DNA of 64,000 nt from Hyphomicrobiales bacterium (GTDB taxonomy: Bacteria; Pseudomonadota; Alphaproteobacteria; Rhizobiales; Xanthobacteraceae): positions 1 to 64,000 of the forward strand of contig JACPOA010000112.1 in assembly GCA_016185205.1 (NCBI GenBank), given 5' to 3'. The notes under the pieces were generated by a model. That model had not been told where the DNA came from. It worked only from the letters and a program-made list of their open reading frames with translations, and ran no database searches. The translations under genes and the position numbers were made by a program. Below are positions 21,028-23,774 of the stretch, one piece after another (position 1 is the first letter of the stretch; each line of letters starts with the position of its first letter).

Positions 21028-21513
21028 ATGGCGGGTAGCGTCAACAAAGTGATCCTGATCGGCAATCTCGGGAAGGATCCGGAAATTCGCCGCACCCAGG
21101 ACGGACGGCCGATCGCCAATCTCAGCGTCGCCACCTCGGAAAGCTGGCGCGACAAGACCACCGGCGAGCGCAAAGAGAAGACCGAGTGGCATCGCGTCGT
21201 CGTCTTCAATGAAGGTCTGTGCAAGATCATCGAGCAATATCTCAAGAAGGGCTCGAAGGTTTATCTGGAAGGCGCGTTGCAGACGCGCAAATGGACGGAC
21301 AAGGAAGGCCACGACAAATACTCCACCGAGGTGGTGCTGCAGGGCTTCAACTCGCAGCTCACCATGCTCGATACCCGCGGCGGCGGTGGCGGTGCCAGCG
21401 CCGACAGCGGCGACGACTTCGGCTCCAGCGGGCCGAGCGCCGCGCGCGAGCGCAAGCCGGCCATGGCCGGCGCCGGCAAGCGCGACGACATGGATGACGA
21501 GATTCCGTTCTGA
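21028..21513 (+). CDS. ssb: Single-stranded DNA-binding protein
   Basis: Ssb coats single-stranded DNA during replication, recombination and repair and recruits partners through its tail. The 161-residue protein has the OB-fold ([17 protein letters not shown], with WHRVVVF and EGALQTRKW), a glycine/serine-rich linker, and the acidic tip DMDDEIPF that binds partner proteins. GGAGA precedes ATG 21028; the open frame upstream is not Ssb-like. It is divergent from uvrA under shared SOS boxes. Confidence 0.97.
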
Positions 21514-21540
21514 CTTAGCGCGACGCTCGGTCCTATCCGC

Positions 21541-21562
21541 CGGTCATGCTCGGCCATGACCG
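21541..21562. repeat. Hairpin downstream of ssb
   Basis: Perfect eight-base arms CGGTCATG and CATGACCG flank a six-base loop, 27 bases after the ssb stop. There is no U-run, so it is only a possible terminator or RNA-stabilising hairpin. Confidence 0.5.
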
Positions 21563-21571
21563 GCAATTGTC

Positions 21572-21690
21572 TTACCCGGCCAGCGCCACGCGCACGCCGT
21601 CGATGACGTATTGCACGGCGAGCGCCGCGAGCAGCGTGACAGCACGATATTGGCGGTGGTGCCCTTGAGCCCCGCGATCACGGCGTTTCG
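21572..21690 (-). pseudogene. Duplicated, frameshifted 3' end of marC
   Basis: The minus strand encodes the last residues of MarC (LAVQYVIDGVRVALAG and a stop). Bases 21579-21635 are identical over 57 positions to 23155-23211 in the intact marC. Further upstream the fragment has lost about 13 bases, which breaks the frame, but it stays similar (GTTANIVLS versus GTTANTVLS) to about 21690. It is separated from the intact gene by a nuclease-like gene. It is either the displaced original end of marC or a duplicate. Confidence 0.88.
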
Positions 21691-21772
21691 CAAACGCCTT
21701 TGGCGGTCATCAAACAGGTCCGCCGCGAGGAAACATTCAATCTCAGTCTCTGGCGCAGGTTACAATGAAATC

Positions 21773-23041
21773 TCACAACACGCGCGAGATGGCCTGAATG
21801 CCCTTCATTCCGGTTCCAAACCGAGCAATCGCGTCCCGATGCTTTTCCAGTTCACCATAGGGCAAGAAGCGTATCTGTAAATCCGCGACACGACTGAATG
21901 CGGGCCGCCGAATTTGGGTCCGAACCTCTTCCTCACGGGTGTCGGGCGCGACCAGAAAAAGTCCGTCCGCGGCATGCAAATTGCTGCTCAATGCGAGATC
22001 GAGCATGCGGACGATGCCGGAGTAGATCGACGTCGTATGCTCAACCTCGAAGGCGGCCATGACGCGCGCGCGGTCCTGATCGAGCCAAAGCACGTCGATG
22101 AGGCGGATCGACTCCGCGCCGGGCATGCTTTCGATCGAATCTGGGAGACAATCCAGGCACCCAGCACCGAGCGTTCCGCCATTGTAGATGCGCCCGCGGT
22201 CATTGGCAGCAATCCACACTTGGTAGCCGATCGCCAGTCCCAGATCCCTGAGCCATGCCTGGACTTCGGTGTGCGTGCGGTCGCCCTCCCGGTCGGCGGC
22301 GATCGATCCCTCGAATCTCTTCGCTGTCTCGCGCATCTTTGACAGCTCCGCGAGCCAAGCGTCGCGCACCGGACCTTCAGCACCGACCGGAGGCGCGGAG
22401 AAGCGCTCAATGCCGACATCGAAGAGAAAACCCGCAACCGCACCAAGATCGTTCGACAGAAGATCGCGGTAGGTCTGGTTTAGTCGCAGCATGCCTGCGC
22501 GCATTGCCACGTAATGGTCCCAGCGACCAAGTTTCACCTTCGAACCTGTGACCGCATTGAAACCATTGACGATGGCTGTATTGAACGGCGGCATCAAGGT
22601 CGGATGCAGGAAATAGAGAAGATTTGCGACCGCTGGTCCAAGCCCTTTGATGGCGAGCCGGTCGATCGTTTCGATTCCGGCGATGATCTCCTGCGCCGTA
22701 TTGCAACACGAGCAATGGTGAAGCAGGCGACCGAACGCACGCTGGTTCTCCTGGCTTTCGTAGATGTCTGGAATCCGAAGCTTTGGTTTCCATAGAAAGG
22801 CGTGATCGGCGCCTTTGAAGATTTGCCGCTGCTCGGCGATGGAGCCGACGATCGTCTCCAGCGAAGATCCCTTGTAGAGGTTGCCGAACGTTCCTGCCTC
22901 GATCTCCTCGACGACTTGAGCGATTCCGCGTCGGATGGATCGGAAGTTCTTGAGCCGCTCCTCCCACAGAAACCACGTCCGATAGGTCGATCCCGGATCG
23001 TCCCGCCAACGTTCGATCAAGACATGCAGCAAATCATCCAC
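21773..23041 (-). CDS. Orphan restriction-endonuclease-like protein, inserted
   Basis: This 422-residue protein is not part of the usual ssb-marC-gyrA neighbourhood. The N-terminal half (about 1-210) contains IKGLGPAVANLLYFLHP, reminiscent of a helix-hairpin-helix segment. The C-terminal half has IDVLW and, after a spacer, AAFEVEHTTSIYSGIVRMLDL; the D...ExE spacing suggests a variant PD-(D/E)XK nuclease core. A restriction or DNA-cleavage role is inferred, not shown. GTG 23041 is the start, with GAGGAG seven bases upstream; a TTG at 23056 is less likely. No methyltransferase, integrase or second defence gene accompanies it. Confidence 0.6.
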   Translation of the reverse strand: MDDLLHVLIERWRDDPGSTYRTWFLWEERLKNFRSIRRGIAQVVEEIEAGTFGNLYKGSSLETIVGSIAEQRQIFKGADHAFLWKPKLRIPDIYESQENQRAFGRLLHHCSCCNTAQEIIAGIETIDRLAIKGLGPAVANLLYFLHPTLMPPFNTAIVNGFNAVTGSKVKLGRWDHYVAMRAGMLRLNQTYRDLLSNDLGAVAGFLFDVGIERFSAPPVGAEGPVRDAWLAELSKMRETAKRFEGSIAADREGDRTHTEVQAWLRDLGLAIGYQVWIAANDRGRIYNGGTLGAGCLDCLPDSIESMPGAESIRLIDVLWLDQDRARVMAAFEVEHTTSIYSGIVRMLDLALSSNLHAADGLFLVAPDTREEEVRTQIRRPAFSRVADLQIRFLPYGELEKHRDAIARFGTGMKGIQAISRVL

Positions 23042-23147
23042 GAACGTGCTCCTCAAAAACGAGTTCTATTCGCGTACTAGAAATATAGCACAGGTCATCT
23101 CGGCATACCGCGAATATCCATTGGCCGGATCGCCTAGCACTCGCGCT

Positions 23148-23774
23148 TTAACCCGCCAGCGCCACGCGCACGCCGTCGATGACGTATTGCACGGCGAGCG
23201 CCGCGAGCAGCACGCCCAGCAGTCGCGACAGCACGGTGTTGGCGGTGGTGCCCATCAGCCGTGCGATCGGCGTGGCGAGCGCGAACACCAGGAAGCACAG
23301 CGCCAGCACCGTCGCGATCACCGCCAGCAGGATCGCCAGCCGCAGCGGGTCGCCGCCGCCGCGGCCGGCCAGCAGCACGGTCGCGGTGATCGCGCCCGGT
23401 CCCGCCATCAGCGGAATCGCGAGCGGGAAGGCGGCGATGTTGCGCACGCGCTCCTCGAGCGCCTGCTCGGCCTGCTGCGACTGCCGCTCGATGCGCACGC
23501 CGAACACCATTTCCGACGCGATCGAGAACAGCAGCAGGCCGCCGGCGATGCGGAACGCCGGCAGGGTGATCGACAAAGTGCGCAGCAGCCAGTCGCCGAC
23601 CAAGGCGCAGCCGGCCAGGATCGCGGCCGCGATCAGGCAGGCGCGCAGCGCCACGCTAAGGCGCGAGCGCGCCGGCAAGTCATGCGTGATCGCGATAAAC
23701 GTCGGCACCAGACCGACGGGATCGACCACCACCAGCAGGGTGACCAAGGCGGAGATGAGGAATTCGACCGGCAT
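23148..23774 (-). CDS. MarC family integral membrane protein
   Basis: The 208-residue inner-membrane protein of the MarC/UPF0056 family has six hydrophobic segments, the VVDPVGLVPTF motif in the first helix and PLMAGPGAITA in the middle, both characteristic. Function is unknown; the old link to antibiotic resistance is not supported. It is divergent from gyrA, as in other Rhizobiales. Its 3' end is duplicated at 21572-21690, next to ssb. Confidence 0.88.
   Translation of the reverse strand: MPVEFLISALVTLLVVVDPVGLVPTFIAITHDLPARSRLSVALRACLIAAAILAGCALVGDWLLRTLSITLPAFRIAGGLLLFSIASEMVFGVRIERQSQQAEQALEERVRNIAAFPLAIPLMAGPGAITATVLLAGRGGGDPLRLAILLAVIATVLALCFLVFALATPIARLMGTTANTVLSRLLGVLLAALAVQYVIDGVRVALAG

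Follow-up and report, generated by a model that had tools for sequence, protein, structure and literature searches.

We analysed a window of 64,000 nucleotides (positions 1 to 64,000 of contig JACPOA010000112.1, assembly GCA_016185205.1) from a Hyphomicrobiales bacterium of the Xanthobacteraceae, in which an intact gene of 422 codons stands between marC and ssb, with complete marC on one side and a second copy of the marC 3' end on the other. That the gene is an intruder, horizontally acquired, is well supported, and so is its family identity: by sequence it is a homologue of CopL, encoded in the copper cluster of plasmid pMOL30. It is therefore a new member of a known family, one that is uncharacterised as far as we found. 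As a whole, the observations are best explained if the acquired copL homologue encodes a damage- or modification-directed nuclease accessory to copper resistance and entered at marC by homology, an account to which we give somewhat less than an even chance. The gene lies as follows, with a GTG start codon preceded by the ribosome-binding sequence GAGGAG:

21773..23041, minus strand: acquired copL-like gene, intact, 422 codons (stop included in the coordinates)

The initial annotation of this DNA had already taken the gene for an intruder, a claim borne out by its absence from the same-genus genomes searched, its low GC content at third codon positions (GC3) and the existence of near-empty sites (see below). 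The gene was present in three of the 199 genomes searched, its own included; the other two belong to the same family and to different genera, and none of the 42 same-genus genomes listed is among the three. Its GC3 was 0.69, against 0.83 for ssb, 0.89 for gyrA, 0.89 for uvrA and 0.93 for marC. Similarity in blastn to the nine closest GTDB loci ended within ~15 bp of the ends of the open reading frame (ORF); because close relatives share just the gene, it appears to move alone, as a single-gene unit. In the relatives compared it was not the case that all close ones carried the same gene together with the marC fragment.

The homologue on pMOL30 of Cupriavidus metallidurans CH34 (cop1 cluster, Rmet_6120) is 64% identical over 422 residues, i.e., over the full length. 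The copL of Xanthomonas copLAB is presumably a different gene from that of pMOL30. The pMOL30 ORF lies at 181,088-182,353 (L167:6001-7266 in our set of loci), in the minus strand, between a copF-type ATPase gene, which is on the opposite strand, and a CzcE-family gene (copH). The position of the ORF agrees with the published gene order copHQ;copL<->copOFGJ (PMC11647585), and an antisense start published within copL, at 181,548 (PMC7563307), falls inside it. A transcription start has been reported 14 bp before Rmet_6120 (PMC9045368), which would put the start codon at 181,969; an in-frame GTG stands at just this position, exactly 128 codons inside the ORF and at the helix-hairpin-helix (HhH) motif described below. 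By the same calculation the start of copO fits with a one-base shift and that of copF has no fit within three bases. The coordinate match for Rmet_6120 is suggestive and, if it holds, the published copL coding sequence starts too late and loses the N-terminal domain. Published labels for CopL are cys-rich cytosolic protein (PMC7563307) and type II enzyme restriction (PMC12029693); the former does not fit the pMOL30 protein, in which 5 of the 422 residues are Cys. As to expression, copL was not upregulated by acute copper, the antisense start within it was (PMC7563307), copL was listed as up under a metal mix (PMC11647585), and CopL was absent from the detected proteome (PMC11647595). No functional study was found in the accessible literature on pMOL30 CopL.

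Searches of GTDB contigs gave 94 relatives, of which 80 were kept (61-90% identical, with record titles from several phyla), and 180 plasmid records carried relatives, 84 of them typed as conjugative. More distant homologues, 34-48% identical, occur in Bacillota, Bacteroidota and cyanobacteria. Thirteen annotated plasmid regions were chosen from the 180 for taxonomic spread; in 11 of them genes for copper or other heavy metals lay within 6 kb, and in two they did not. Copper genes were found near relatives on plasmids of Cupriavidus, Caballeronia, Caulobacter, Rhodococcus, Hymenobacter, Listeria, Enterococcus and Lactococcus. Metal markers, i.e., matches to 19 metal-resistance query proteins taken from the family's own neighbourhoods (two of them from test loci), occurred at 56 of the 80 GTDB loci and at none of 48 marC-ssb loci, which make a weak control because they are one locus repeated. 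A better control, the genomic background, was used for P-type ATPases like the usual neighbour, 248 of which were counted in 188.3 Mb (34 whole genomes), so that 0.02 are expected per locus. With the same query and E limit, a P-type ATPase gene of the heavy-metal type was present at 17 of the 34 loci (binomial P 3e-20, or 2e-12 at a threefold background), where loci inside one genus are not independent; a looser threshold gave 18/34. These densities come from 34 of the 80 loci (L048 left out), after a first look that scored at most 30 candidates per genome. Over all 80 loci, P-type ATPases were present at 29. After 15 of the 80 loci were dropped as redundant or short, a Pfam scan of 91 of the 121 neighbour proteins gave the HAD hydrolase domain, which P-type ATPases also contain, in 14 proteins, E1-E2 ATPase in 13, HMBD in 7, YHS in 6 and HMA in 5. 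A conserved partner other than metal genes was sought among the recurrent neighbours and none was evident. The two same-family copies of the gene stand, one near a P-type ATPase gene, the other near copper oxidase and copB-type genes. As for the window copy, no metal marker matched anywhere in the 64 kb; its own genome encodes, on another contig, an ATPase 73% identical to the gene's frequent neighbour, and in our reading of the translation the C-terminal part of the ORF divergent from that ATPase resembles a CsoR-type repressor.

Several copies of the gene showed features of their own. Some assemblies have two or three copies of copL (81-90% identical to the window protein): L036 and L037 are on one contig, L039 and L041 on another, with L034 in the same assembly as the latter pair; the L037 copy is placed between two convergent P-type ATPase genes. 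In a Methylocystis metagenome-assembled genome a broken second copL (L035:1446-1973) lies ~4 kb from an intact one. On a Lactococcus lactis plasmid (L176) the copL homologue in a copper operon has several stop codons and, as this copy illustrates, copL decays in some copper operons.

The acquired protein had no Pfam or NCBIfam match. The REase_II profile of PADLOC matched its residues 251-400 (E=3.7e-12) and all 67 proteins of a family alignment composed of the window protein and 66 of the 80 GTDB loci (alignment A1). The initial annotation had described the cargo as a restriction-type nuclease, and the C-terminal half is indeed predicted to have a restriction-type nuclease fold. The predicted structure is that of a two-domain DNA enzyme, a glycosylase-like reader followed by a nuclease, with these parts:

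22376..23035, minus strand: N-terminal domain, residues 3-222, predicted fold like that of HhH DNA glycosylases (MjOgg, SsOgg, MutY, OGG1)
22571..22648, minus strand: helix-hairpin-helix core, residues 132-157 (KGLGPAVAN...PPFNTAI)
21785..22330, minus strand: C-terminal PD-(D/E)XK nuclease domain, residues 238-419, predicted
22040..22096, minus strand: putative nuclease active site, D316 ... E332-x-E334

In the predicted structure, the N-terminal domain is nearest in shape to archaeal 8-oxoguanine glycosylases. Residues K132, G133, G135, P136, N154 and T155 of its core are invariant in 67/67 sequences. Where the glycosylases have their catalytic Lys and Asp, we read Ala137 and Asn154, so that catalysis has apparently been lost; this register is our own, and a weak hhalign alignment places the Asp differently. 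The Pfam profile of the HhH-GPD family (PF00730) had no match at E <=1, and the hhalign comparison with HhH-GPD proteins was not significant (probability 1%). In the nuclease domain, D316, E332 and E334 are also invariant in the 67 sequences, and we take them for the putative active site. The N-terminal domain is the more conserved of the two, with a mean top-residue frequency of 0.79 against 0.70 in the nuclease domain. When solved structures were searched by sequence, the matches were mainly coiled coils of viral glycoproteins with weak scores (one of 2e-5), which we judged to be composition noise, and the fold look-ups brought out no closer family.

Taken with the copper context, the damage-reader-like domain and the nuclease triad point to a lesion- or modification-directed nuclease that would act during copper stress. 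While the link of the family to copper islands is a matter of observation, the substrate and role of CopL are what we infer: the glycosylase-like domain would recognise a base that is damaged or modified, such as copper-driven oxidation produces, the PD-(D/E)XK domain would then cut the DNA beside that base, and CopL would serve as a repair or clean-up nuclease in copper-stressed cells. Put in its most specific form, a copper-stress DNA-quality nuclease of at least four phyla that joins a dead 8-oxoguanine-glycosylase-like reader to a PD-(D/E)XK cutter for copper-oxidised DNA, the proposal is tentative and we would call it possible rather than probable.

An unlikely, though not negligible, alternative is an orphan restriction enzyme for defence against phages or plasmids that merely shares its plasmids with copper genes. 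The REase_II match throughout the alignment agrees with it, as does public annotation, in which the family is often a type II restriction endonuclease, and single neighbours match defence models, e.g., LmuB and IetA. The homologue on a Hymenobacter plasmid, within a copper and arsenic region, is directly followed by an annotated restriction endonuclease (L171:7297-8493), which also speaks for a restriction role. However, no DNA methyltransferase was among the 25 commonest of the 81 families in the 91 neighbour proteins, and the defence models matched by these neighbours had one or two members each (best 25 of 49 models). The family is also found next to copper genes repeatedly, in Bacillota, Bacteroidota, Actinomycetota and Pseudomonadota. 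Relatives were absent from 50,697 phage records, and of 22 candidate stretches picked out in viral contigs by two short peptide patterns none encodes one; these searches likewise argue against the restriction alternative, and on the same results we discarded a phage origin of the gene. A type IV-like, modification-dependent nuclease that would read a modified base in foreign DNA accounts for the predicted base-reading fold apparently devoid of glycosylase catalytic residues and for the invariant nuclease triad, but leaves the copper context unexplained, and we consider it distinctly improbable.

We then examined how the copL homologue is placed at marC. Read along the minus strand, intact marC is followed by a 106-bp spacer, the 422-codon gene, an 86-bp spacer, a 115-bp fragment of the marC 3' end and a 58-bp spacer that carries a hairpin, beyond which lies the convergent ssb; gyrA is on the far side of marC and divergent. 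The immediate neighbours of the acquired gene are thus ssb and marC, with uvrA and gyrA next (the names of these two are by our reading, and both are conserved in relatives). The features are:

23148..23774, minus strand: intact marC (Pfam MarC, E=9.7e-52)
23042..23147, minus strand: left junction, from the marC stop to the start of the acquired gene, single copy in the genome
21687..21772, minus strand: right junction, from the stop of the acquired gene to the marC fragment, devoid of blastn similarity to the flanks of the nine closest GTDB loci
21572..21686, minus strand: second marC 3' end, carrying a deletion of 13 nt and an insertion of 2 nt
21579..21635, minus strand: 57 bases identical to 23155-23211
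21539..21564, no strand: hairpin between the marC fragment and ssb
21028..21513, plus strand: ssb (Pfam SSB, E=4.5e-37)

Duplication of the marC end is far beyond chance. The 57-base exact repeat reported in the initial annotation is present at both places and flanks the acquired gene; it is enclosed in a longer repeat (21572-21635 and 23148-23211) with 62 of 64 bases identical. The further, diverged stretch of marC that the same annotation had described is there as well, with the deletion and insertion listed above: similarity continues for ~50 bases beyond the exact match (84% over 45 bases), and the fragment aligns to the last 126 bp of marC. In a blastn comparison of the marC end with the downstream DNA the E value was 1e-32; 101 of 114 aligned columns were identical, the longest identical run was 58, and a permutation that ignores uneven conservation within marC gave p=0.0005. 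Homology stops at the stop codon in both copies. Within its own genome the fragment stretch matched only itself, marC and, weakly, a single 58-base site on another contig, and the spacer between marC and the acquired gene matched only itself; we therefore rejected the possibility that the junction sequences are genome-repeated elements. Among the 47 loci of relatives tested, none had a comparable repeat of the marC end.

Divergence along the fragment is uneven: mismatches number 11 in the 50 proximal positions and 2 in the 64 distal ones (Fisher p=0.002), and the proximal part agrees with the host marC at 39/50 positions, as does the best marC of another species among those shown. Because the distal part is near-identical and the proximal part is no closer to the host marC than that of another species, we suggest that a foreign marC end was joined by recombination. 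The gene would have arrived on DNA with a marC-like end, that end would have recombined with the end of the host marC, and the diverged 3' fragment would have been left as a scar beside the marC-ssb spacer. Homology-assisted recombination at marC thus seems the best account of the duplication. The initial annotation had proposed a passenger carrying or regenerating the marC end in the manner of integrative elements, and had allowed for homologous exchange at marC; the exchange is the part we favour, and the integrative-element reading is weak.

The main alternative, plausible if somewhat less than probable, is insertion with a long target duplication of ~115-126 bp, followed by decay or partial gene conversion of one copy. 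It would readily produce one gene between direct repeats of the target, and the fragment still lies 58 bp from ssb, the spacing of an empty site; long, variable target duplications have been described for restriction-modification systems (PMC3031569). The unevenness of identity along the fragment, however, fits a foreign marC end better. Nor is target duplication a habit of the gene family, a possibility we rejected since among 81 other loci tested just one (L065, 40 bp, 82%) had a direct repeat lying within 100 bp of the gene on either side; weaker or more distant flanking repeats were present in several, and at one locus the flank was too short for the repeat test. Lastly, the exact 57-bp repeat is a candidate attachment site at the marC 3' end, and the locus could be the remnant of an integrase-borne element that targeted this end and has lost its integrase, a reading supported by the duplication of a gene end whose homology stops with the stop codon on both sides; we find this very unlikely because the repeats enclose just one gene (the initial annotation had noted that an integrase is lacking, and in fact there is no second gene of any kind), because none of the 47 tested loci of relatives has a comparable marC repeat, and because homology runs past the identical core into marC, which is unexpected for an attachment site.

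The conserved neighbourhood uvrA-ssb-marC-gyrA, of which the initial annotation had named ssb-marC-gyrA, is real: ssb was downstream of marC and convergent in 41 of the 48 marC loci of relatives. Within the genus and family the spacer between marC and ssb (L114-L161) differed greatly in the genes it holds and in its length, which lay between 41 bp and 9,260 bp where ssb was found. Near-empty sites exist, with gaps of at most 94 bp in four loci (41, 94, 67 and 59 bp in L122, L124, L152 and L156, respectively). In the window the distance from the stop of the fragment to that of ssb, 58 bp, is inside this 41-94 bp range, and this near-empty-site distance makes it most likely that the fragment represents the former end of marC or what replaced it. 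Other genes were found at the same point in relatives. Downstream of marC 109 ORFs were listed, a count that includes the ORF of the window and the ORFs of seven loci without ssb. Pfam and PADLOC scans covered 87 of them, leaving out the ORF of the window and the 21 of L160 and L161. The top Pfam family was the CNNM/CorC transporter type, in 12 of the 87, followed by alpha/beta hydrolases, DUF4142 proteins, methyltransferases, permeases and single cases (best 25 of 47 families). PADLOC gave six models (mad2 with two members; mad3, mad8, two of RT-Protease_XI and AriA with one each), whose matches we provisionally take to be common methyltransferase, protease and ATPase domains; no recurrent defence system was found in these 87 ORFs. 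The suggestion of a defence hotspot was consequently rejected: the inserts are mostly ordinary genes by Pfam and each PADLOC model has one or two members. With a CNNM/CorC-type gene in 12 loci, the marC-ssb interval seems simply to tolerate the insertion of ordinary genes, and a lone PD-(D/E)XK gene at a variable site should not automatically be read as anti-phage defence.

Copper islands have been studied for their pumps, oxidases and sensors, and in the accessible literature that we found this conserved, probable nuclease has no assigned role. Carried as it is on plasmids of both Gram-positive and Gram-negative bacteria, the CopL family merits attention. If CopL does act on copper-damaged DNA, metal resistance would be tied to genome maintenance, mobile metal-resistance islands would bring their own DNA-damage response, a family that annotation often lists under type II restriction endonucleases would be a repair enzyme, and there would be a direct test of copper harm via DNA damage. 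The window copy is useful here because it is intact yet apart from copper genes, so that its function can be judged separately from the island.

Compared with known systems, the window copy differs from CopL of the cop1 cluster in its setting, beside marC and with no metal markers in the 64 kb, whereas CopL is part of a copper cluster. With the archaeal 8-oxoguanine DNA glycosylases (MjOgg, 3knt/3fhf; SsOgg, 3fhg) its likeness lacks significant profile support; the window protein apparently has Ala and Asn in place of the catalytic Lys and Asp, and it carries an extra nuclease domain. With the PD-(D/E)XK type II restriction endonucleases (BsaWI, EcoT38I, BamHI, PaqCI) it has in common, by predicted fold, a PD-(D/E)XK domain with an acidic triad; in contrast to them, no cognate methylase was found beside the window gene, a glycosylase-like N-terminal domain is added, and the family is one of copper islands. 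Finally, the locus shares a nuclease gene between long direct repeats with the insertion of restriction-modification systems with long target duplication (Nobusato and colleagues 2000, as cited in PMC3031569 and PMC3874152); it differs from such insertions in that one of its repeats is diverged and truncated, the gene has no accompanying methylase, and its family members, save for one in 81 tested, stand between no such repeats.
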